64,000 nt of DNA from Kordiimonas sp. SCSIO 12603 (GTDB lineage Bacteria > Pseudomonadota > Alphaproteobacteria > Sphingomonadales > Kordiimonadaceae): assembly GCF_024398035.1 (NCBI RefSeq), contig NZ_CP073748.1, positions 2,579,520 through 2,643,519 on the forward strand, read 5' to 3'. The notes beneath the pieces are model-generated. The model saw only the letters and a list, made by a program, of their open reading frames with translations. It was not told the origin of the DNA and ran no database searches. The first letter of the stretch is position 1. Each line of letters opens with the position of its first letter. Of this stretch, positions 1,432-35,503 are shown piece after piece. The position numbers and the translations under genes were made by a program.

Positions 1432-2103
1432 ATGAAAGTATTTTCCGTTCAAAAAATCCTTTTTGACCTTGATGGCACACTGGTCGATACGGCTGCTGAT
1501 TTGCATGCTGCCACTAACCATGCACTCAACATTGCAGGCCGGCCAGATGTACCTCTTTCTTCCGTTCGGCATTTAGTTGGCTTTGGTTCACTTCGGCTTA
1601 TCAAAGAAGGGCTAAAGCTCACTGGTGGCTCGGAAGGTATTGACAGCACAAATCTTCAAAAAGAGTTTTTAGATTTCTATACAGATAATATAGCCGTACA
1701 TTCAGCACCCTACCCCTATTGTGTGCAAGCACTCACCGACCTTAAGGAAAAAGGCTTTGAATTAGCTATCTGTACGAACAAACCAGAACGAATGGCTAAA
1801 TCCTTACTATCGGAATTGGATTTATTAAAATACTTTGGCGCTATTGTGGGCGGTGACAGCCTACCATACAAAAAGCCCGATGCACGCCATTTGCAAGATA
1901 CAGCGGCCCTTCTAACCGGCACTGGTCCTACTCTTATGGTTGGAGATGCATCACCTGATATATTAGGCGCGAAAGCAGCACATATGCCCGTTGTTGCAGT
2001 AAACTATGGTTTTGCAGATACAGATATCAAAGCGCTCGAGCCAGATATGATTATTGAATCTCTGGCAACCTTACGGGATGTGGTTTCGCTCCAATCCGCT
2101 TAA
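1432..2103 (+). CDS. gph: Phosphoglycolate phosphatase (HAD superfamily)
   Basis: A 223-residue HAD hydrolase of the Gph type, expected to remove phosphate from 2-phosphoglycolate formed during DNA repair or oxygenase side reactions. HAD motif I is FDLDGTLVDT with the nucleophile Asp12 and the acid/base Asp14. Motif II is ICTNKP, and motif IV is MVGDASPDILGAK; the lysine of motif III lies in YKKPDARH. Length is normal for the family. The gene converges on the nucleotidyltransferase gene and their 3' ends overlap by 53 bases on opposite strands. The exact substrate within this promiscuous family is inferred from the best-known member. Confidence 0.85.
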   Translation: MKVFSVQKILFDLDGTLVDTAADLHAATNHALNIAGRPDVPLSSVRHLVGFGSLRLIKEGLKLTGGSEGIDSTNLQKEFLDFYTDNIAVHSAPYPYCVQALTDLKEKGFELAICTNKPERMAKSLLSELDLLKYFGAIVGGDSLPYKKPDARHLQDTAALLTGTGPTLMVGDASPDILGAKAAHMPVVAVNYGFADTDIKALEPDMIIESLATLRDVVSLQSA

Positions 2104-3097
2104 AGGCTTTCACAACTAGATGCGGTAATAGCCTGTATAGAGGCATCCGAAGCAGATGAGAACGTAGATAGAGCATCGCTTTAGTGGATTTACGAGTTTG
2201 GTTGCCATTCAACCGATCGACAAACCAATCAAGAACAGTTTGAGACGGTACACCACCAAGTTCCTTCAAAAGATCATCTGCTCGCTCGCTATCCAGAACC
2301 TTAGCAAGAAGCCCGAATGCATAAGCACACGGCTTTTCAGCACCGATCATCTTTATGCGCTCTAATAGTGCCAAATCCTCATCGGAATCCAGATCGCTCA
2401 ACAACAAATTAAGTTCAATCAAACTACGGACAGGCGTTTCGAATGTTCCATCAGCGAAAGCATGGATAGCTGAATGAATGAACAAGTCCTGCGGCGACAA
2501 TACTTTTAGAAAACTACCCACCAGAGGCATAGCTGCCTCAAAAAAGGGCTTATTATTTATATTTAGTCTAGACGTTGGCGGAAGAAGGCGGTGGTGAACA
2601 TCCAAAATTGTGAACCGAGCTGAATGCCTGAAAGGCGGCAATTCATGCATATGCTTGCGGTAATAATGCTGATCATACTCTTCAGCCGCACTTTCATCAA
2701 AATTCCAACCGGCAGCAAGCAGAATTTCCTCAGCCTCTTTAACATTCTGCTCAGGCACAAGAATATCGAGATCGCTTACTCGCCTACCTTTCGCAGCCTC
2801 AAGTCCCAAGGCCACATAAGCGCCACCTTTTAAAAGGATCGGCTGAATACCTGATCCCATAAAAGCACGCTCAAGGCGTTCCTTTTCACTGTGAAGCATA
2901 TGATGATCATAAGCTGCACGAGTTACACCATTTTCAAGGACCGACTGCATTTTTTTGCTAACCGTATCACCCGCAACCAAAGCAAGGCGGCCAAACACAT
3001 GATTAACGTCCGCAAACTCAAGCAGCAGAGCGCGCTCTGTTACATTTTCAGGAATGGGTTCAAGGCCTGCTATAACACGTGTAAAATAACGGCTCAT
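2051..3097 (-). CDS. Nucleotidyltransferase family protein (PF14907-like), last gene of a PqqD/HprK-like operon
   Basis: A 348-residue protein with a nucleotidyltransferase core: ILLKGGAYVALGL followed by GRRVSDLDILV, where the two aspartates are the expected metal ligands, then LDVHHRLLPP further on. This is the pattern of the PF14907 group, members of which are found in some lasso-peptide clusters and in HprK-related kinase operons. It probably transfers a nucleotide or sugar to a target that is not known. Its start overlaps the end of the kinase gene by 4 bases, so it is translationally coupled. Its last 53 bases overlap gph on the other strand. Family assignment is good; substrate is unknown. 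Confidence 0.75.
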   Translation of the reverse strand: MSRYFTRVIAGLEPIPENVTERALLLEFADVNHVFGRLALVAGDTVSKKMQSVLENGVTRAAYDHHMLHSEKERLERAFMGSGIQPILLKGGAYVALGLEAAKGRRVSDLDILVPEQNVKEAEEILLAAGWNFDESAAEEYDQHYYRKHMHELPPFRHSARFTILDVHHRLLPPTSRLNINNKPFFEAAMPLVGSFLKVLSPQDLFIHSAIHAFADGTFETPVRSLIELNLLLSDLDSDEDLALLERIKMIGAEKPCAYAFGLLAKVLDSERADDLLKELGGVPSQTVLDWFVDRLNGNQTRKSTKAMLYLRSHLLRMPLYRLLPHLVVKAFKRIGAKPHPVRLPEIQ

Positions 3098-4023
3098 AAC
3101 CCTGCCTCCTCGGCAAAGTCACGCACCATCTGCATACATTCCTCTGTATCACCATAAGTGATATCGTAGGCTTCAGCCCCTACAACCATATCTGTAAGTG
3201 CTTTATACGCAGGCTCACCAAGGAGCTTGTAGTTGGTCGCAGATTCAATAAGCCGCATAATCGTTTCAGCTTTCGTGAGCTTTTTGGCGCGCGGGCTTAC
3301 ATTCTCAGCAAAATTAGGGAATAGAATTAGTTTAACAGGCGCAGGAATATTCGCTTGTTCAATATCAGAACGTCGAGCTCGCCTATAGGCAATTTCGCCT
3401 TTAGGGGTATTCATAATAGATTTCGAAACCCATTCGGCACCAACCATCTCTCTTACTACAGAGATTGAATTTCCTTTAAGTGAGACAGGCCTTGGGTAGG
3501 GATTAATTTCTGCTTTATCCAGTGAAAGCAAACCAAACTCATCTGAAAACAGACGGTAACCTTCCTGCATCAAGGCTGTTGTAAGTGTGCTTTTTCCACT
3601 GCCCGATGCACCAGAAATCAAAACGCCGCCATTTTCATTGGCAACCGCACCTGCATGAAATGTTAAAAACCTACAACACTTCAGCGCAACAGAAAGATTC
3701 ATCCCCATTTCTAAGCTGAGTGGTGCCATTTTTTTAGGGAGTGGTACAGCAGGTACTTTAAATCCTGGATCAGGAATAACCTGTGGGCGCAAATACTTCC
3801 TGAACACATTCGGCGGTCTGACATTCAGCGCAATATCAGTTACTTCCTGTAATTCAAGATTAGCAGGCACATCGCGATACACATCAAATAGAAAATCGAC
3901 CAATTCAGGTGATTGCGAAGCGAGCCGAGCGGAGAATGCTCCGAGAATTAGTTCAAACTGCCCCTCCTTCAGAGAAGAAAACACATCAGCTCTATTTAAG
4001 TTGGAGATAAGCGTTTCAGGCAT
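3094..4023 (-). CDS. HprK-related kinase (HPr-rel-A type)
   Basis: A 309-residue protein with a P-loop GASGSGKST at residues 138-146 and an acidic FSDEFGLL segment about ten residues after it, the arrangement of the C-terminal kinase domain of HPr kinase/phosphorylase. It lacks the recognisable HprK C-terminal signature, so it is a relative, not the PTS regulator. Relatives phosphorylate a serine on lasso peptides in some Gram-positive clusters. Here the target is unknown; the Tat-like protein two genes upstream is the obvious candidate. It overlaps the PqqD-like gene by 8 bases upstream and the nucleotidyltransferase by 4 downstream. Confidence 0.8.
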   Translation of the reverse strand: MPETLISNLNRADVFSSLKEGQFELILGAFSARLASQSPELVDFLFDVYRDVPANLELQEVTDIALNVRPPNVFRKYLRPQVIPDPGFKVPAVPLPKKMAPLSLEMGMNLSVALKCCRFLTFHAGAVANENGGVLISGASGSGKSTLTTALMQEGYRLFSDEFGLLSLDKAEINPYPRPVSLKGNSISVVREMVGAEWVSKSIMNTPKGEIAYRRARRSDIEQANIPAPVKLILFPNFAENVSPRAKKLTKAETIMRLIESATNYKLLGEPAYKALTDMVVGAEAYDITYGDTEECMQMVRDFAEEAGL

Positions 4024-4327
4024 TGCTATATTCTTTTGGCTTCAGTAATCCAACCTCATCTAATTGAATAACAGAGCTTTCAAACAATTCGGCAGGGCAA
4101 TCTTCTGTATCAAGTTCAAGGTCATCGAGAACCCGATCATACAAGTCCTTCATATTTCCTGGCTTATCAACTGCATTTTTGACAATAGACGCGGTAAGAA
4201 AATTTAGAAGGTGCGTTGTTCCTGCGGATTTACAGAAAACAAAATATACATCCTCAAACTGCCGAATGACAAAATCATCAGCTTCCGCAATCCAAATTGT
4301 CTGGGAAGTATATGGACCTACTGCCAT
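4016..4327 (-). CDS. PqqD-like protein of an HPr-rel-A operon
   Basis: A 103-residue protein with the size and pattern of PqqD-like RiPP recognition elements: an N-terminal strand-rich half (WIAEADDFVIRQFEDVYFVFC) followed by a helical half with a closing IQLDEVGLL segment, the usual end of a PqqD winged-helix fold. In known systems these small proteins hold the leader of a precursor peptide and hand it to a modifying enzyme. It sits 38 bases downstream of the Tat-like protein gene and overlaps the kinase gene by 8 bases, so the kinase is the likely partner. Assignment is from pattern and context; sequence identity to PqqD is low. Confidence 0.7.
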   Translation of the reverse strand: MAVGPYTSQTIWIAEADDFVIRQFEDVYFVFCKSAGTTHLLNFLTASIVKNAVDKPGNMKDLYDRVLDDLELDTEDCPAELFESSVIQLDEVGLLKPKEYSNA

Positions 4328-4365
4328 TATATAAACTCAAACTGTAGAGACAGGTTGAATTACCC

Positions 4366-4935
4366 CTAACCGAGGTAATTCAAAATTGATACGATACAAG
4401 AAATACCCGGCCAACTGGAATTCGGGCTAAGATCAGCTTGTCTTGCAGAAAGTGCGACATACAAGCTTGCCGCATCGGACCCCAAGTTCCAAGAACCGTT
4501 AACGTCTACATAATCCCCTGGCGTAATCAATTGGTAAGCGTCAAGCGAATATAATTCATAGCAACTGCTTGAAGAATCGCCATCACCGTCACCATCGCCA
4601 TCACCTGAACAGCTACCAGGTCTGAACTGGCTTGGCGCGCTGCTAGAAGGGAAAGAAAAATCGGCGTTATCTTTAAAGTTGTTGATATCTTTACTTTTAT
4701 ATTTGCCTTTTTTCTTTTTAAGGTTGCCATTACCAACCCACGCAGCCCCATCATCATCAACGAGAATACGAATACTGCCAGGCAATGTAATGACACACTG
4801 AAGCTGGGAAATGAGTGGACCACCTGAAGCTCCTGCCCCAAGTGTTAAAACCATAGGCATACCAGCAGCGCCCAAACGCAAAAGCTGTCGACGCTGATCT
4901 CTGAACTTAGTTTTGCTATCTTCAGTACTACTCAT
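4366..4935 (-). CDS. Unknown protein with Tat-like signal, possible substrate of the kinase/PqqD module
   Basis: I do not recognise this 189-residue protein. It opens with a charged stretch and QRRQLLRLGAAGMPMVLTLG, a twin-arginine followed by a hydrophobic run, which resembles a Tat signal although the full S-R-R-x-F-L-K motif is missing. Next comes a lysine-rich segment (KKKKGKYKSK), a serine/proline stretch, a run of Gly-Asp repeats encoded by a six-base tandem repeat around 4577-4607, and four cysteines in the mature part. It is the first gene of the operon with the PqqD-like, kinase and nucleotidyltransferase genes. Being a modified secreted substrate is an inference from position only. 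Confidence 0.6.
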   Translation of the reverse strand: MSSTEDSKTKFRDQRRQLLRLGAAGMPMVLTLGAGASGGPLISQLQCVITLPGSIRILVDDDGAAWVGNGNLKKKKGKYKSKDINNFKDNADFSFPSSSAPSQFRPGSCSGDGDGDGDGDSSSSCYELYSLDAYQLITPGDYVDVNGSWNLGSDAASLYVALSARQADLSPNSSWPGISCIVSILNYLG

Positions 4936-5198: not shown

Positions 5199-6473
5199 AT
5201 GTCCGAGTCCTTTAAAGAATATCAAAGCTTACTCACCGAACGTGCTATCATTATTGTTATCGCTATTACTTTGATATTTCTTTGGTCGGTGAACCAAATC
5301 AGCTTTATTGCTGTTGCTGTGACAACAAGCATTGCCGCAGGCCTTCTTGTTCAGCTCGAAATAAAGCGTCGTATGGAGACATTGCGGAGTAAGCGTGTTG
5401 CTGAAACTGAGAAGCGAAAGAAAGCAAAACAAGGCGCACAATCGTTAAGAGCAAACGCGCTCAATGGTGTTCCTTCTGCTATTTTGCTTATTGATTCAAA
5501 TCACAAGATTATCTTTGCCAACAAAATGGCGAAAGAGCTACTTGGTGATGGGATCGTTGATAACGATGCTTTCCTTTATCTGCGGCAATCAAATTTTGTG
5601 ACAGCGCTTGATAAGGTGTTAACAGGCGGAAAAAAGGCAAATGATCTTATCCGCTATACGACAAGCCAGGATCGCAGTTTTGATGTAACTGTCGCAGCTG
5701 TTACCAGTACTGAGCCTGGCAAGGAAAAACAGCGACAAGCAATGGTTTTCTTCTACGAAGTTACAAGCCTGTTACGCACAGAACAAATGCGTGTAGATTT
5801 TGTTGCAAACGCCAGCCACGAACTTCGGACTCCTCTCACATCTATTACAGGCTTTATCGAAACGCTTCTTGGGCCTGCTGCGGAAGACAAGGCTGCGCAA
5901 GACAGGTTTCTTGGAATTATGCAGCGTGAAGCGGACAGGATGATCCGCCTCATTGATGATCTTTTATCACTTTCAAAAATTGAAATGTCTCGGCATGTAA
6001 GCCCAGACAGCGATGTTGACCTTAATAACATTCTACAAACGACTGCTACAACGCTCTCTAGGAAAGCTGCAAAGCGAGGCATAGAGTTTAATTTAGATAT
6101 CTCTGAGAACTTACAGAATGTCACTGCTGATGCAGACCAGATTACACAGGTAATGATGAACCTGGTTGGTAATGCTGCTAAATATGCCGATCAGGACACA
6201 CGAGTTCATATCTCTGCGCTTCCGACGCCAAGCAATCGTCATATGCAAGTTACGATAAGAGACGAAGGGCCAGGCATTTCCCCTGAGCACTTAGGCCGAT
6301 TGACTGAACGTTTTTACCGTGTCGATACAGCGCGTTCTCGAAAAATGGGCGGCACTGGTCTTGGGCTGGCAATCGTAAAACATATCCTTCTGCGCCATTC
6401 ATCTCAGCTGGATATTAAAAGTAAGATTGGTGAGGGCACCTCTTTTAGCTTCAAGTTACCGATCGCCAAGTAA
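5199..6473 (+). CDS. phoR: Phosphate regulon sensor histidine kinase PhoR
   Basis: Membrane sensor kinase that phosphorylates PhoB when phosphate is scarce. Two hydrophobic segments lie near residues 15-50, then a short coiled region and a PAS-type domain (roughly 80-190). The HisKA box is FVANASHELRTPL with phospho-accepting His207. The ATPase domain shows the N box MMNLVGNAAKYA, the G1 box DEGPGIS, the F box ERFYRVD and the G2 box GGTGLGLAIV. At 424 residues it is a normal PhoR. Its position directly before pstS, with phoB closing the same cluster, makes PhoR rather than another kinase very likely. Confidence 0.93.
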   Translation: MSESFKEYQSLLTERAIIIVIAITLIFLWSVNQISFIAVAVTTSIAAGLLVQLEIKRRMETLRSKRVAETEKRKKAKQGAQSLRANALNGVPSAILLIDSNHKIIFANKMAKELLGDGIVDNDAFLYLRQSNFVTALDKVLTGGKKANDLIRYTTSQDRSFDVTVAAVTSTEPGKEKQRQAMVFFYEVTSLLRTEQMRVDFVANASHELRTPLTSITGFIETLLGPAAEDKAAQDRFLGIMQREADRMIRLIDDLLSLSKIEMSRHVSPDSDVDLNNILQTTATTLSRKAAKRGIEFNLDISENLQNVTADADQITQVMMNLVGNAAKYADQDTRVHISALPTPSNRHMQVTIRDEGPGISPEHLGRLTERFYRVDTARSRKMGGTGLGLAIVKHILLRHSSQLDIKSKIGEGTSFSFKLPIAK

Positions 6474-12706: not shown

Positions 12707-12723
12707 GGCTAAACACTTAGCCC
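12697..12723 (-). terminator. Intrinsic terminator of the XrtA locus, embedded in the phoB stop region
   Basis: Read on the minus strand: GGGCTAA, loop GTGT, TTAGCCC, then TATTTTTTT. The 7-base-pair stem covers 12706-12723 and the T-run lies in the last codons of phoB. The stop codon of phoB (12704-12706) and that of the amidotransferase gene (12709-12711) both touch the stem. In the plus direction the hairpin lacks a T-run, so it should end minus-strand transcripts better than phoB transcripts. Confidence 0.8.
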
Positions 12724-14598
12724 TAAATGTCTTAATGACCGGTCCAGAGTTAAGAGAGACCAGAGCGTCGTGTGGTGGTCTCTCACCTCTGTAATATGTT
12801 CCTCAATCATTTCTTTGACACCGTTCATATCGATAAGACCGGTATCGGCAAGAGTTTCACTTTTTTCCAAATCCCTCAATTCAGGCAATAATTCATCCCT
12901 GAGCCAATTTACCGCAGGCACCATAAAGCCTTGCTTGCTTCGGTAAAGTGTTTCATTTGGCACAAAGCCTTCTAGTGCCTTCTTAAATACGTGCTTCCCC
13001 TCACCTTCAACAATTCTAGAAGCCGGGTTAATACGCATCGCATATTCGACGAATTTATGGTCAAGGATAGGTACTCGTACTTCCAGAGAATGCGCCATAC
13101 TCGCTCGGTCAACTTTTGTAAGGATATCACCGGGCAAATACGTTTTCAGGTCGATATACTGAATGGTGGAAAGCTCATCAGCTCCCTTAACCTCATCAGC
13201 GATTTTAGTAAACAGGTCATGAGGATGGTACCCGGCAAGCTTCTTCTTCATTCTGTCCGTATGAAGACGGTAGCGGTCTCGGTCAGGTGTTTTACTAACA
13301 CTATGACAATAGGCCTCAGCTGACGTTCGTGCTAATGCCTCGAATGTAGATTTAGCTCGTAAAAACTGCGGGGCTCTATCCATCTTAGGATAAAGAGTGC
13401 CAAGAGGCTTAAAAATAAGCCTTCGAAGGCCAAGTGGTATACGGCCTCTAAGATTTTCTTCCAACATATGAAAACGGTGACGGCGATATCCGGCAAACAA
13501 TTCATCACCACCATCCCCAGATAACGCTACCTTCACTTTTTCCCTCGCCAAACCACACACTCTGTATGTCGGTAACGCCGATAGATCAGCAAAAGGTTCA
13601 TCATAAACCTGTGCCATGCGGTCAAGAAGAAAGCCATCATTAGCAGAGGCTAACCGCAGTCTATGATGGGTGCCAAAATGGTCAGCAATCGATTGGGCAT
13701 ATCCACTTTCATCGAAATCATCGTCATCAGAACCAATAGCGCATGTTTCAACAGCATCATCGTTATTACGGCTCATCAAACCAACAACGGCAGAACTATC
13801 TACGCCACCTGACAGAAACGCACCAAGTGGAACATCAGCAATCATTCTAAGCTTAACAGCCTCTTCCAACCGTTCAACGAGCTCACCTTCGTCGACCACT
13901 GAATTCGCGGAAGGAATAATATCGGGAGCCCAGTAACATGATAACTGCATATTTCCCGTATTGGCATTTCTAACCAAGGTATGTGCTGGCGGTAATGTAT
14001 GTACACCTTCCACTAAAGATTTTGGATCAGGTACATACCCAAGCATTAAATAGTCTTCGAGAGCATCAATTCGTAATTTACGGCGAACCGCATCATGGGC
14101 AAGAAGCGCCTTAAGTTCTGACCCAAACAAAAAAGTGCCATCGCTTAGTTCGGTATAGTAAAAGGGTTTAATGCCCAACCGGTCCCGAGCCATGAATAGT
14201 TCCTGACTACGATTATCCCAGATTGCGAAGGCAAACATACCGCGTAAACGGTTCACACATTCTTTTCCCCACGCAAGATAACTCTTCAAGAGCACCTCTG
14301 TATCGGAATGCGTAGAAAACTGATAACCCTCAGCCTCAAGCTCCCTGCGGAGGCTCTGGAAGTTATATACTTCTCCATTATAAGTAAGGATCACCTGCCG
14401 GCTTTCACAAGCCATAGGTTGCTGCCCACCTTCAATATCGATAATACTAAGACGACGATGGCCTAATCCTACCTTCTGCCCGAAATAGAACCCATCCCCG
14501 TCAGGCCCTCTATGTGCAATAGTGGCCGTCATCTTGCGAAGAGTAGATTGATCCACCCCTCCAATTTCAGGAGCCATAATGCCTGTTATTCCACACAT
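12709..14598 (-). CDS. XrtA/PEP-CTERM system amidotransferase (asparagine synthase-like)
   Basis: A 629-residue glutamine-hydrolysing amidotransferase. Cys2 in MCGITGIM is the class II glutaminase nucleophile, and GPDGDGFY and RLSIID are standard glutaminase segments. The synthetase half has the PP-loop LSGGVDSSAVVGLM and ALSGDGGDELFAGY. The type found in exosortase A loci is thought to amidate a component of the exopolysaccharide rather than make free asparagine; this is inference from context. It overlaps xrtA by 13 bases and is the last gene of the locus. Confidence 0.88.
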   Translation of the reverse strand: MCGITGIMAPEIGGVDQSTLRKMTATIAHRGPDGDGFYFGQKVGLGHRRLSIIDIEGGQQPMACESRQVILTYNGEVYNFQSLRRELEAEGYQFSTHSDTEVLLKSYLAWGKECVNRLRGMFAFAIWDNRSQELFMARDRLGIKPFYYTELSDGTFLFGSELKALLAHDAVRRKLRIDALEDYLMLGYVPDPKSLVEGVHTLPPAHTLVRNANTGNMQLSCYWAPDIIPSANSVVDEGELVERLEEAVKLRMIADVPLGAFLSGGVDSSAVVGLMSRNNDDAVETCAIGSDDDDFDESGYAQSIADHFGTHHRLRLASANDGFLLDRMAQVYDEPFADLSALPTYRVCGLAREKVKVALSGDGGDELFAGYRRHRFHMLEENLRGRIPLGLRRLIFKPLGTLYPKMDRAPQFLRAKSTFEALARTSAEAYCHSVSKTPDRDRYRLHTDRMKKKLAGYHPHDLFTKIADEVKGADELSTIQYIDLKTYLPGDILTKVDRASMAHSLEVRVPILDHKFVEYAMRINPASRIVEGEGKHVFKKALEGFVPNETLYRSKQGFMVPAVNWLRDELLPELRDLEKSETLADTGLIDMNGVKEMIEEHITEVRDHHTTLWSLLTLDRSLRHLGLSV

Positions 14599-16097
14599 TT
14601 ATTAGGGCCTTCCACAGAATATTTTAATTCACTCCAAACAAAATCACTTGGAGATAAAGTAGATAAAAATTTGCTCAATGTTTCTCTAGCATCATCTGAA
14701 CTATCTACTATCTCGGTAGAAAACACAACAATGCCAACAGCAGATTTTCCGTAAAACAACCGTTCCTTTGCAGTTGCTAATTTCACATCTACGTTTGAAG
14801 AGAGGAACTTATTATCAACGAAATAGCTGGTCCAAACCAAACGCCTACGGTTGCCAAGCCGGTACACTTCCTCCAAAAAGTTATCACCAGCTACATAGAA
14901 CTGCCTTATACTCTCCGGGGCAAAACTCCAATTTTTTCCACCCGACGATCCTTGATAAGCCCTTAAACGGTGCCCCTTACGCATCGAGCAATACATACCA
15001 GAGTAAGCATAAATATTATCGGCCAATATTCGGTAAGAAGCTGACGCTTCATAATCAACACCAACAAATGTTGGCTGATAGCTATTAAGCCGGGAAGGAA
15101 GTTTACGAGCCTTGCACGAAATACAATCCGGCAAATCAAATGATGAAACATCATTTGATTTCACTGCCTCCTTTGGAGCAAACATAAATAAAATGATCGG
15201 CAAGATACTAGCGGCAATCACCCAGTCACCTCTACCCGAATATGTGAAAGGCACCGAAGGGTTAGCGGTGAAATCCACCTGCTCAACATCAGAAAATTTG
15301 TACGCTAAAGAAATTAGAATAATCAGAATGAAAGACAGAAAGCCCCATCCATAAACGATATGATCCACACCTTTTGCGAATTCCTGATCTGTGGCTTCTG
15401 AAATTAATAAAATTCCTAAAACACGTAAGGCATTGGCAAAAACGGGCAATATAGCTGATACAAGGACAATAATAACCCTGCCTTTCCAGCTCTTATAGCA
15501 GAGGTTAGCAAGCAATACGCCCGTTACCAAACAGGTGAACAAAAACTTAATTCCAGCACACGCGCGAGCTACCTCATAGATGCCGCTTGATAATGTGATG
15601 AGCACGCCATCTGCTTCATATTCCACCCCTAATACATCCAGCATGAAAATTGCCATCTGTGCAGTCATATTTTGGAGAGGTGGGATCAGTTGCTCACCAA
15701 ACGGTACCATCAGGAATAAAAACAAAGATGGAAACAGGATATTTCTATATATAACAGGGCCAAAGCACATAAGCGCCAGTGCCTGTATTCCAGCAATGAG
15801 GGAAATATGGCCAACAACATATATCTCTAGGACCTGAGAGCCAAGCCAGGCAAGCGATACCAACACAAATGCCAACATTCCCGGCACCCAGAAAACAGGT
15901 TCAAGCGTACTGAGCGCCTCACGCCTCATCCAAATCAACCAAACCGATACGAATGGAATAATCAATCCGTGAGAGAATGTATCTACATTCCAGATCAGAT
16001 TGAAAAAATGGGCAGTTGTCTCTCCCCATGCTAATAGCATGATTGAAACGGCTCCGATAAATACCGCTATATGTTTATAAAACTGATTACCTAGCAT
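14586..16097 (-). CDS. xrtA: Exosortase A fused to an EpsI-like domain
   Basis: Membrane transpeptidase that recognises the C-terminal PEP-CTERM signal on exported proteins, cuts it and probably attaches them to a surface polymer. About eight hydrophobic segments occupy residues 10-270. The catalytic triad is visible as Cys180 in ARACAGIKF, Arg225 in FANALRV and His246 in VDHIVYGW. The remaining ~220 residues after a further membrane segment form the soluble EpsI domain common in type A exosortases. A likely substrate, the 33068-35503 protein, is in the same region. It overlaps both neighbours. Confidence 0.95.
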   Translation of the reverse strand: MLGNQFYKHIAVFIGAVSIMLLAWGETTAHFFNLIWNVDTFSHGLIIPFVSVWLIWMRREALSTLEPVFWVPGMLAFVLVSLAWLGSQVLEIYVVGHISLIAGIQALALMCFGPVIYRNILFPSLFLFLMVPFGEQLIPPLQNMTAQMAIFMLDVLGVEYEADGVLITLSSGIYEVARACAGIKFLFTCLVTGVLLANLCYKSWKGRVIIVLVSAILPVFANALRVLGILLISEATDQEFAKGVDHIVYGWGFLSFILIILISLAYKFSDVEQVDFTANPSVPFTYSGRGDWVIAASILPIILFMFAPKEAVKSNDVSSFDLPDCISCKARKLPSRLNSYQPTFVGVDYEASASYRILADNIYAYSGMYCSMRKGHRLRAYQGSSGGKNWSFAPESIRQFYVAGDNFLEEVYRLGNRRRLVWTSYFVDNKFLSSNVDVKLATAKERLFYGKSAVGIVVFSTEIVDSSDDARETLSKFLSTLSPSDFVWSELKYSVEGPNKCVE

Positions 16098-33067: not shown

Positions 33068-35503
33068 ATGTTCGCAAGTAATAAATCTCTAGTGATCGCG
33101 ACGTTGCTTACTGGCACAGCCGTGGCAACGGGCACTATCCTATACGGTATTCATAGCAGCGACGCACCAGAACTCGTCATTCTGGATGATACGCTTCCCC
33201 CGGTAATTGGAAATGGCTTACTGCCACCACCAGCGACCTACGCTATGACTACGCCGCCACCCAAGGAAATTCCTGGCATTCGCCGACTTAAAATTTCCCG
33301 CCCTGCTTTGGAAGGTGCCGAAAATACAAACGAAGCTGACTTTTATCTGACTGGTACACGTAGTGCTGAACTTATCAGAAAACCAGTGGAGGCTCGTATT
33401 GAGACATTCCCATCAGTAACACTTGAGGAAGCCGTTGAAGGTGCTCTTGCTGTTGATGAATGGGGTTTCCAGGTTGTGCAATCATACCTAAACCAAGCGA
33501 TGGGCGATGCGGACGAGCTCAAGCGACGTATGGATGCTCTACTTGCGAAAATCGAAGAAGTAGCAGGTGACTATGACCTAACCACAATTTCTGATGCTGC
33601 AAATCTAATTATTGAAGCGGGCGGTAGAACACACTGGACAGCCTTCATGTCTCCGTTTGTTCTGGATCGTTCCTTCAAACTTCAAGATGATGCCATCGGA
33701 TGGGATTTAGGTCCATCTAGCTACGAACCTTATGACAAATTTATTCGTGTAGGCTCAGAAAGTAAGATGCTCATCGGTGATAATATCAACGATGAGGGTG
33801 ATACCGCGGGCCCTTCTATCTTGCGCAATGGTGTGCGTAACGTAGAGCAATTTGTAGCCTCTGGCTTGAAAAATGGCCGTTACCGCGTTGTTATTCTAAC
33901 GGCTCCACGTCAAAATGGTTCAGCACCACTTTATCCGTTCGGGGTGGATGTGAAAAGGAACGGCGGTAAGATCAACATGGTTGATACACGCGCCACCGAC
34001 GATATCGTACCACTGATGAAACTTTCCACCGAAGGTCCTGGTCGCTTGACAGACGCGGGTGGTGAAGCAGCCTCATATCAAAATGGTGAAGTGAAATTTA
34101 GCCTTTCTGGTTCTAGTTCAGCTCCATTAATTGCTTCTGCGGACCCATACATTACCCAAGGACGCTTAAGTAATACTTACGGCAGCGCATCTTTAAGACT
34201 TCTTGAGCCTATGGCGCAAGCGGGCCCTAACCTACTTCAGTCTGGTGGCGACAATTACCGACCTGCGACTGGTCATATGCTCGTAACCAGAGCTGAAGTT
34301 GTTGATGGCACACTACGCATCAGTTTCCGTCAATTAGGCGGTCAAGATACTTATGTAACTGCTGTAATTATCTATCCTGAAGCTGACACCAGTATTGATG
34401 AAGAATTGGCAGAACAGGTTGTTGAATTTATTCAACGCATCGCGCCAGCAGCGGGTGAAAACCTAACAGCGGAAAATATCCTAAAAACAGATTTACCTAT
34501 TGTTGATGCGCGCGTTGTTTTCTCTGATGCGTCTGGTGGCCTACCAACACCAGAAGCCGATGCAGCCACTCCAGAAGCCCCTGTTACAGGTGGCGGTGAG
34601 ACACCATTGACTGAAGAAGACGACGACACACCAGAGCCAGAACCAGATGGTACACCTGACATTGGTGCTCCAAATGAACCAGAACCTGAGCCAGAACCTG
34701 AGCCGGAGCCAGAACCTGAACCTGAGCCGGAGCCAGAACCTGAGCCAGAACCGGAGCCAGAACCTGAACCTGAACCGGAGCCAGAACCTGAACCTGAACC
34801 GGAGCCAGAACCTGAACCTGAACCGGAGCCAGAACCTGAACCGGAGCCAGAACCTGAACCGGAGCCAGAACCTGAACCTGAACCGGAGCCAGAACCTGAA
34901 CCTGAACCGGAGCCAGAACCTGAACCGGAGCCAGAACCTGAGCCGGAGCCAGAACCTGAGCCGGAGCCAGAACCTGAGCCGGAGCCAGAACCTGAGCCGG
35001 AGCCGGAGCCAGAACCGGACCCTGCACCACTGAGACTTGTTCTTGATGCAGGCGGCGGTGATGATGAGGTTTATGACCCGGTCACACTAGGTGAGGATTT
35101 CCTACTTGACGGTTGTGGTTCGACTTTCGAAACAGAACTTGTATGTAGCCTAACAGACAGTTCAGACTTTGAGATGGTCTGGATTCTTGACGGCCAAGAA
35201 ATCGGTACAGGTAGCCAGTTAACCGTACAAACTGGCCAAGGTACGTTATTCGACGAAACGGGCGACGTTGATATCACAATTCAAGTTCGCTACGACGGAC
35301 GCCTACTTGAGGACGGTGAAGTACTTAATATTATCACTGGAGGCTCTGTATTCCTCCCAGGTGATATTATCTTCACGAGCCTGGACACTGCAATCATCCG
35401 TATTGTTACAGCAGTCCCTGAACCAGGTGCGTTGTTCTTACTGGCCCCTGCTCTTGCTTACGGTATACGCCGTCAACGTAAGAAGAAAAAAGAACTTACA
35501 TAA
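33068..35503 (+). CDS. PEP-CTERM protein with a long Glu-Pro repeat; probable exosortase A substrate
   Basis: An 811-residue exported protein. Residues 8-27 form a signal or membrane helix. Residues 30-530 are a mixed region without a fold I recognise. Residues 537-650 are 57 uninterrupted Glu-Pro units. After this, a ~120-residue domain with Ig-like strands ([20 protein letters not shown]) precedes the sorting signal: VPEPG, a hydrophobic helix [12 protein letters not shown] and the basic end [11 protein letters not shown]. That tripartite end is the PEP-CTERM signal cut by exosortase. The start ATG has GGAG 11 bases away, a weak spacing. A strong terminator follows. Confidence 0.88.
34676..35017 (+). 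repeat. Coding tandem repeat of Glu-Pro codons (57 units)
   Basis: 342 bases of GAR-CCN codon pairs, uninterrupted in frame. Codons are not random: units of 18 bases (GAGCCAGAACCTGAACCG) and 12 bases (GAGCCAGAACCG-type) alternate, and the third-position choices recur in blocks. This suggests growth by slippage or unequal crossing-over of 12-, 18- and 24-base units. The tract probably forms a stiff, highly acidic proline-rich stalk that spans the cell wall or surface layer. Confidence 0.95.

Follow-up and report, generated by a model that had tools for sequence, protein, structure and literature searches.

The window analyzed in this study is a stretch of 64,000 nucleotides from Kordiimonas sp. 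SCSIO 12603 (contig NZ_CP073748.1, positions 2,579,520 to 2,643,519). It contains a cassette of four minus-strand open reading frames (ORFs) at 2051-4935, with two overlaps (4 and 8 bases) and one 38-base gap. These overlaps and the gap agree with those in an earlier note on this DNA. Of the families proposed there, PF14907 and HprK-related are backed by bit scores above the cut-offs, and PqqD-like by a score just below its cut-off and by a predicted structure similar to the RiPP recognition element (RRE; RiPP stands for ribosomally synthesized and post-translationally modified peptide). The four genes and the features of the fourth one, which encodes a protein with a twin-arginine translocation (Tat)-like signal, are as follows.

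2051-3097, minus strand: PF14907 nucleotidyltransferase-fold protein, 348 aa (137.9 bits, cut-off 31.2)
3094-4023, minus strand: HprK-related kinase A (HprK_rel_A), 309 aa (TIGR04352, 228.8 bits, cut-off 200)
4016-4327, minus strand: discrete RRE (PqqD-like) adaptor, 103 aa (TIGR04353 PqqD_rel_X, 33.5 bits, just below the cut-off of 35)
4366-4935, minus strand: candidate substrate (precursor) with Tat-like signal, 189 aa; its homologue co-occurs with the kinase
4825-4935, minus strand: N-terminal Tat-like signal of the precursor, with the core P-M-V-L-T-L in residues 27-32; proposed RRE-binding region
4795-4809, minus strand: S43-x3-C47, the N-terminal Ser/Cys of the mature part; S43 is candidate acceptor 2
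4576-4605, minus strand: (Gly-Asp)5 acidic tract, by its sequence a short form of a D/G/N-rich linker
4387-4401, minus strand: S179-C180-I-V-S183, the C-terminal [ST]C-hyd-x-S-hyd motif (hyd, hydrophobic residue); S183 is candidate acceptor 1

It is likely, with a probability of roughly 0.7, that these genes constitute an RRE-guided modification cassette and that its substrate is the Tat-exported protein encoded alongside, which would carry an RRE-bound signal and a serine phosphorylated by the kinase. The kinase and the PqqD-type protein are already catalogued in NCBIfam as the "HPr-rel-A system"; the new result is their likely substrate.

Distribution of the cassette and its precursor

The order sample consists of 196 genomes, including 29 from the family of the window (f1) and 113 from the largest family (f5). 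HprK_rel_A scored above the cut-off in 88 of the 196. Together with G006 and G090, the latter with a kinase at 197.7 bits that is just below the cut-off of 200 and was scored as present, 90 genomes were counted as kinase genomes. Of the families of the order (f1-f8), f1 and f5 were profiled for kinase and precursor together. In f1, 26 of 29 genomes have both the kinase and a precursor homologue, and the remaining three have neither. In f5, a profile of 14 f5 precursors recovered 32 of 113 genomes, which are exactly the 32 genomes with the kinase. The weakest match to this profile was G053 (E = 8e-9). No precursor without the kinase was found in the 196 genomes, either with the window protein as query (E 0.01) or with the f5 profile (E 1e-4). 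The check proposed in the earlier note, whether the upstream protein travels with the kinase, thus comes out strongly in favour, unlinked cases included, and the outcome that would have spoken against its reading, precursors mostly without the kinase, is not observed.

The kinase and the precursor are unlinked in six f5 genomes. Genus g33 has seven kinase-bearing genomes; in five of them, the precursor is beside phoR and the RRE, kinase and nucleotidyltransferase genes are elsewhere, 163-685 kb away in four genomes and on another contig in one. In G053, the precursor and the RRE lie together beside phoR, and the kinase and the nucleotidyltransferase are on another contig. Such co-occurrence without linkage speaks for a mutual dependence of precursor and enzymes, and for an RRE that goes with the precursor. 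The loci concerned by the displacement in one f5 genus are L336-L340, L176, L177, L179, L182, and L185. Judging from the translations, several of these loci and several among the Sphingopyxis-type loci L270, L300, L302, and L303 have a TonB-receptor-like ORF upstream.

Eight genomes of the window genus (L082-L089, in G024, G043, G049, G052, G067, G070, G085, and G096) have one more precursor homologue, which stands alone and shares the C-terminal motif. It is possibly a second substrate served in trans. A sigma-factor-like ORF is found near this copy in seven of these loci (not L083); in L084 it matches Sigma70_r2 and DUF6596.

In the phylum sample, the kinase scored above the cut-off in 61 of 398 genomes, 13 of which are shared with the order sample. 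A first set of loci was composed of one cassette region per genome from 138 genomes, and 134 of these regions include at least 900 bases upstream. After curation by hand, a Tat-like ORF is observed upstream on the same strand in 123 of the 134 cassettes (121, plus L186 and L210). The ORF is 4 kb away in L097 and about 2 kb away in L157. For six cassettes (L091, L176, L177, L179, L182, and L185) the precursor is elsewhere in the genome. Tandem precursor pairs precede one cassette at L062:4660-6132, L071:5231-6820, and L074:4627-6251, and L092 has two upstream ORFs.

A second, named set contains the best 80 of at least 590 related stretches. It includes Kordiimonas, Eilatimonas, Emcibacter, Sphingomonas, Sphingobium, Sphingopyxis, Massilia, Nitrosomonas, Thiobacillus, Neptunomonas, and others; the closest named relative among these 80 is Kordiimonas laminariae, whose kinase is 98% identical. 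The named set partly overlaps the first set (e.g., the Kordiimonas laminariae and Eilatimonas contigs) and is therefore not independent. At least 1 kb upstream is available for 76 named loci, with the PqqD-like gene in 73, the nucleotidyltransferase in 76 and the precursor in 71 (65 by scan and L252, L267, L269, L312, L255, and L304 by hand). The recurrence of this gene order across the phylum argues against chance. One cassette, L276, is on a contig titled as a metagenome-assembled genome of Bythopirellula, outside Pseudomonadota, which may be a binning error.

The regular expression used for Tat-like ORFs gave raw counts of 126/134 and 69/76, and false matches on the opposite strand in 30/134 and 19/76. 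For this reason, the raw results were curated by eye. None of the opposite-strand matches in the 76 named loci has the C-terminal motif. Matches removed as spurious were those of L176, L177, L179, L182, and L185 in the first set, those of L270, L300, and L303 in the named set, and second matches elsewhere. Entries added or corrected by hand were L097, L138, L156, L186, L210, L212, and L228 in the first set and L252, L255, L267, L269, L304, and L312 in the named set.

Conserved features of the precursor, the enzymes and the adaptor

The precursors total 187, or 174 distinct sequences, as some genomes are in both sets. Most are 80-300 aa in length. They fall into 65 clusters at 50% identity after the removal of the spurious L270 (66 with L270). 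In class I, the signal consists of RR-x-x-L followed by P-x-hyd-hyd-[TS]-hyd in 32 of 33 clusters, and T is at +4 from the core P in 30 of the 32 clusters having P. Only the largest cluster departs from this; its 52 sphingomonad sequences read ...ASAVVSIRP... without the Pro of the core. The Pro core thus cannot serve as the only RRE motif.

Of the 148 class I precursors, 142 have S-x2,3-C at a short distance from the signal (mean of 26 and maximum of 37 in shuffles). A variable middle follows, and then [ST]C-hyd-x-S-hyd near the C-terminus. Of the 187 precursors, 148 carry the C-terminal motif, as do 135 of the 174 distinct sequences and 33 of the 65 clusters. In the first set it is found in 110 of 122 (mean 1.08 and maximum 5 in 200 shuffles); one of the other 12 is of class III. 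Among 6,017 ORFs of 80-350 aa in all frames of the same loci, 170 carry the motif in their last 60 residues, precursors counted in. When the frame [ST]C-hyd-x-?-hyd is taken in the last 60 residues, the open position is Ser in 148 of 148. Class III comprises six loci (L145, L276, L284, L295, L311, and L317), Nitrosomonas included, and shows SA-x-A-[YLM]-x-S-hyd, with Ala in place of Cys and the Ser retained. Class II includes many beta/gamma sequences (L134, L135, L141, L144, L147-L151, L254, L255, L258, L272, L279, L282, and L304). By eye, these have no C-terminal motif, and Ser-rich S-G-N-x-S-like and SPG[YF]W stretches are seen near the N-terminus.

The precursor of the window carries RRQLLRLGAAGMPMVLTL and the (GD)5 tract; at this position, relatives mostly have a longer D/G/N-rich linker. 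Its Tat features (RR motif, hydrophobic stretch and small-residue cleavage site) were recognized by eye, and tatC is found in the genome. No NCBIfam, Pfam or PADLOC family matched the protein at the thresholds used, and none of the NCBIfam models covers any of ten other precursors scored. S43/C47 and C180/S183 are invariant in the five-sequence alignment A3, and the counterpart of S43/C47 in alignment A4 (14 sequences), S39/C43, is invariant as well. The AlphaFold2 model has a mean predicted local distance difference test (pLDDT) score of 70.1 (5 sequences). Past residue 50, the ten-residue means are 71-93, except for 47 at residues 111-120. The S183 motif sits where the last predicted helix starts. 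For the predicted mature fold, Foldseek found nothing better than E 1.0 and VIA nothing at Z of 2 or above; as the model was built on 5 sequences, this is no proof of a new fold.

In the kinase, H123, K144, D161, and E162 are kept in 132 of 132 aligned sequences (132 of the 138 collected). The kinase shares the P-loop kinase core with HPr kinase/phosphorylase, which targets HPr in carbon regulation, and we take its catalytic His/Lys/Asp to correspond to those of that enzyme. Its sequence similarity to HPr kinase/phosphorylase structures (PDB 1jb1 and 1ko7) is weak, with E of about 0.02. PDB sequence searches with the RRE, the nucleotidyltransferase and the precursor gave no useful matches. In the nucleotidyltransferase, K90 and G91 are conserved in 124 of 124 sequences and D109 and D111 in 122 of 122, counting residues present at those columns. 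According to a review (PMC9266682), paeninodin-type kinases require His-Lys-Asp-Asp and phosphorylate the C-terminal Ser of the precursor, and PsmN, a nucleotidyltransferase homologue, placed hexoses onto the phosphate. The cassette kinase retains the His-Lys-Asp of the lasso kinases described there.

Two loci have a large additional ORF between the kinase and the nucleotidyltransferase (L137:4362-6626, 754 aa; L140:3189-4904, 571 aa). L143 (G275) is a lone HprK_rel_A kinase amid exosortase-type sugar genes, with no RRE, nucleotidyltransferase or precursor found near the kinase.

The adaptor is, on its predicted structure, an RRE resembling lasso RREs bound to leaders. The AlphaFold2 model (mean pLDDT 88.7, 55 sequences) shows strands and then three helices, as in known RREs. 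Foldseek ranks TbiB1, a lasso B1 protein in complex with its leader peptide, first (E 0.02, probability 1.00); another lasso B1-leader complex, 6jx3, and PqqD 5sxy are also among the matches. With VIA-align, TbiB1 was aligned over 88 residues (Z 9.8, root-mean-square deviation 3.2), tied with the lantibiotic dehydratase MibB in the top row (Z 9.9).

Neighbouring genes and comparison with known systems

In the window, the neighbours of the cassette are a phosphoglycolate-phosphatase-like (gph-like) gene, phoR, pst genes and the XrtA locus. Three of these features are as follows.

5199-6473, plus strand: PhoR-type histidine kinase, divergent from the precursor gene; a recurrent neighbour, only putatively a member of the cassette
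12709-14598: XrtA amidotransferase (TIGR03108, 851.8 bits, cut-off 816.9)
14586-16097, minus strand: exosortase A (XrtA) of the linked polysaccharide locus (TIGR03109, 257.8 bits)

The gph-like gene and the nucleotidyltransferase gene are convergent, with a 53-base overlap at 2051-2103, and a gph-like gene adjoins the cassette in 21 of 80 named loci. Farther away, at 33068-35503, an 811-aa protein has a very long Glu-Pro repeat and a PEP-CTERM-like end (VPEPG, hydrophobic stretch and basic tail); it gave no NCBIfam match at E 1e-10.

The earlier note described lasso-type tailoring enzymes that stand alone, with neither a cyclase nor a B2 protease. Neither was found: the transglutaminase-type B2 protease (PF13471) has no match in the whole genome at E 0.01, and the nearest cyclase-like gene (12709-14598) scores 262 bits with the lasso cyclase model, whose cut-off is 525. 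Of the five asparagine-synthase matches of the genome, this gene was the one scored against lasso models. In other loci, the asparagine-synthase-like neighbours of the cassettes in L073, L133, L139, L140, L142, and L146 proved without exception to be XrtA amidotransferases (825-1018 bits against a cut-off of 816.9), and they reach 238-292 bits with the lasso cyclase model. A complete lasso set in related genomes, the second outcome against that note, is therefore not seen in these six, and no search aimed at cyclase/B2 pairs near basal members was made in other genomes.

The kinds of enzymes are those of paeninodin-type clusters (PMC9266682), which would fit a lasso-peptide cluster decayed by the loss of its cyclase and protease. 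This origin is hardly credible and was rejected: the catalytic residues are kept in every aligned kinase, the six scored neighbours are far below the lasso-cyclase cut-off, and the precursors are mostly above lasso size. Paeninodin and pseudomycoidin, according to that source, share with the cassette a kinase, a nucleotidyltransferase homologue (PsmN) and a separate RRE (B1). Their substrate is a threaded peptide, whereas the cassette has no cyclase or B2 protease and the candidate in its case is a protein carrying an export signal. An anti-phage defence system was also rejected, since PADLOC gave weak matches for the kinase only (best 7e-05, 20.5 bits) and none for the other three proteins.

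The HPr-rel-A system (NCBIfam TIGR04352/TIGR04353) includes the same kinase and PqqD-type protein, and the name calls the latter a peptide chaperone. At 33.5 bits, the window adaptor narrowly misses the cut-off of the PqqD-type model, and its position and predicted RRE fold agree with such a protein. There is no model in it for the window protein or the ten other precursors scored. The PF14907 nucleotidyltransferase is presumably associated with HPr-rel-A genes as well, and the PF14907 gene adjoins the HPr-rel-A-type kinase and PqqD genes in the window. No paper on the HPr-rel-A kinase or system, or one linking it to exosortase, Tat or RiPP, was found in the open-licence literature.

The closest studied system found is that of the linear polyphosphorylated peptides (LPP), not lasso peptides. 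It is described as restricted to Bacillota (Popov et al. 2026, PMC13381572). Both systems have an HprK-type kinase, a discrete RRE and an NTP transferase, with no cyclase. In both, the precursor has a conserved N-terminal PxVL-containing motif and a variable C-terminus, one to three precursors are present per locus, and polysaccharide loci are nearby. The phosphorylated Ser of LPP is the third core residue, and S3T was not phosphorylated. Its leader motif, YxxPxVLxHQxIxFETxxS, is bound by RREs. In the cassette, the P-x-[VI]-[LV]-T-L core of the signal resembles the P-x-V-L part of this motif; the window protein shares only P-x-V-L with the leader motif, with no Tyr three residues before the Pro.

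LPP comes with a SipW-like leader peptidase and an MsbA-like exporter of its own. Neither was seen in the cassette or the ORFs adjoining it, as judged by reading translations and by scoring ten proteins, without a signal-peptidase model. The cassette also differs in its occurrence in Pseudomonadota, its Tat-like signal, its mostly larger Cys-containing precursors, its SC-x-x-S motif and its linkage to XrtA. The system is thus a variant set apart from LPP by phylum, export route and precursor, with no dedicated peptidase or exporter seen. From comparative genomics, it is well supported that the cassette works like LPP, by predicted RRE-guided Ser phosphorylation. Of the reading in the earlier note, the link to the upstream protein is supported. 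The idea of stripped-down lasso enzymes at an isolated locus does not, because the system is widespread, its kinase and PqqD protein are already named in NCBIfam, and LPP is closest to it.

Association with exosortase, proposed mechanism and implications

The XrtA polysaccharide locus starts about 8 kb from the cassette, at 12709. In the order sample, the XrtA model matched 148 of 196 genomes at E 1e-20 or better, and 127 above the cut-off, which implies that some matches are other exosortases. At this E-value, an exosortase is present in 84 of the 90 kinase genomes (not in G023, G045, G051, G084, G101, and G112), 64 genomes have an exosortase without the kinase and 42 have neither (Fisher p 3.9e-8, uncorrected for relatedness). 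In 43 genomes picked and compared by hand, the kinase and the exosortase are no more than 15 kb apart in 35; in the five f5 genomes among the 43, the distance is always over 15 kb. Several phylum-sample cassettes adjoin the XrtA amidotransferase and exosortase-type sugar genes.

The proximity to exosortase genes speaks for an alternative, in which the enzymes modify another molecule, such as a component or carrier of the exosortase-linked polysaccharide, and the Tat protein is a co-working exported partner. This alternative is unlikely. The discrete RRE is a peptide-binding fold, its gene in G053 stays with the precursor and not with the kinase, and exosortase without the kinase is common. The conserved serines of the precursor would also be left needing an explanation.

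In many loci, the precursor gene is divergent from phoR and the pst genes. Among the 80 named loci, pstC is found in 29 and phoR in 35, a count that may include other histidine kinases. Such phosphate-regulon neighbours would suit a regulatory role, with the RRE as a Tat chaperone and the kinase, like HPr kinase/phosphatase, operating an export switch instead of making a lasting modification. Signal-peptide binding by an RRE-like protein would serve as proofreading, and the bifunctional HPr kinase/phosphatase is a relative of the kinase family. Such a switch is nevertheless quite improbable: it gives no role to the nucleotidyltransferase, found in all 76 named loci with sufficient flank, or to the conserved serines of the mature part, and no Pho box stands out between the precursor gene and phoR in the window (135 of 200 shuffles attain its score of 9).

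From gene content, co-occurrence, conserved residues and the predicted RRE fold, we infer a scheme of binding, phosphorylation, order of steps, export and role for the substrate cassette. The RRE (4016-4327) would bind the signal of the precursor, whose P-x-hyd-hyd-T-L core resembles the [YW]xxPx[VL] gripped by other RREs. In sphingomonad precursors without the Pro, it would bind via a related stretch. This binding would retain the precursor in the cytoplasm, where the HprK-type kinase would phosphorylate an invariant serine, most likely S183 or else S43 just past the signal. Both are reasonable acceptors, given the third-core-residue Ser of LPP and the C-terminal Ser of paeninodin, and S183 is favoured, since this position holds Ser in 148 of 148 and retains it even where the Cys is replaced. 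The PF14907 enzyme may then add a group to the phosphate, for which a nucleotide or, by analogy with the reported activity of PsmN, a hexose would come into question. Once modified and folded, the protein would exit by Tat and be cut by an ordinary signal peptidase; this would account for a cassette without a leader peptidase or exporter of its own. It would act at the cell surface, probably with the exosortase-linked polysaccharide.

The Tat pathway suits cargo that needs completion before export. In many bacteria, a small exported protein is paired with a peptide-binding adaptor, a kinase and a nucleotidyltransferase, and these gene patterns suggest a phosphate-based tag placed on a conserved serine before the protein leaves the cell.

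Several observations weigh against this reading. The co-occurrence of the precursor and the kinase is also compatible with a non-substrate partner. The precursor was not found for 5 of 134 cassettes (L142, L143, L189, L205, and L211; L142 has only 1.4 kb upstream), nor locally for the four Sphingopyxis-type cassettes L270, L300, L302, and L303, and L288 is not settled. In the eight window-genus genomes with a second precursor copy, there is no kinase beside it. The Pro-containing signal core is found in only 108 of 187 precursors (96 of 148 in class I) and is absent from the 52-member sphingomonad cluster. The C-terminal motif is absent from 39 of 187 precursors, chiefly beta/gamma class II, which lack a motif of the S183 type; the motif can thus be the universal acceptor only if class II employs another serine. 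The window protein matches no TAT_signal model of NCBIfam or Pfam, and among ten relatives the sole TAT-model matches, L090 and L148, are both below cut-offs. The Foldseek E-values of the adaptor are weak (best 0.02, none below 0.001). Finally, the cassette kinase has Glu162 where the lasso-kinase motif has its second and final Asp.

The HPr-rel-A enzymes have been named, but no target was found for them in the literature searched. With a candidate substrate family that travels with them, also where unlinked, and has a conserved serine, the system becomes directly testable. As a more tentative extension, rather doubtful at present, the cassette may represent a general route of Pseudomonadota to exported phospho-glyco-proteins. 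The RRE would act as a Tat proofreading chaperone until the Ser-phosphate-(sugar/nucleotide) is built, and this group would then anchor or prime the exosortase-linked polysaccharide. If so, the LPP and paeninodin loci near capsule genes of Bacillota would be the Gram-positive form of the same principle.

If the substrate assignment is true, kinase-based RiPP-type modification would extend from Bacillota, where it was described in 2026, to a large part of Pseudomonadota. It would also be joined to Tat export, a link not found in the literature searched, and would provide a second case in which Ser-phosphate peptide systems are tied to loci for surface polysaccharides.

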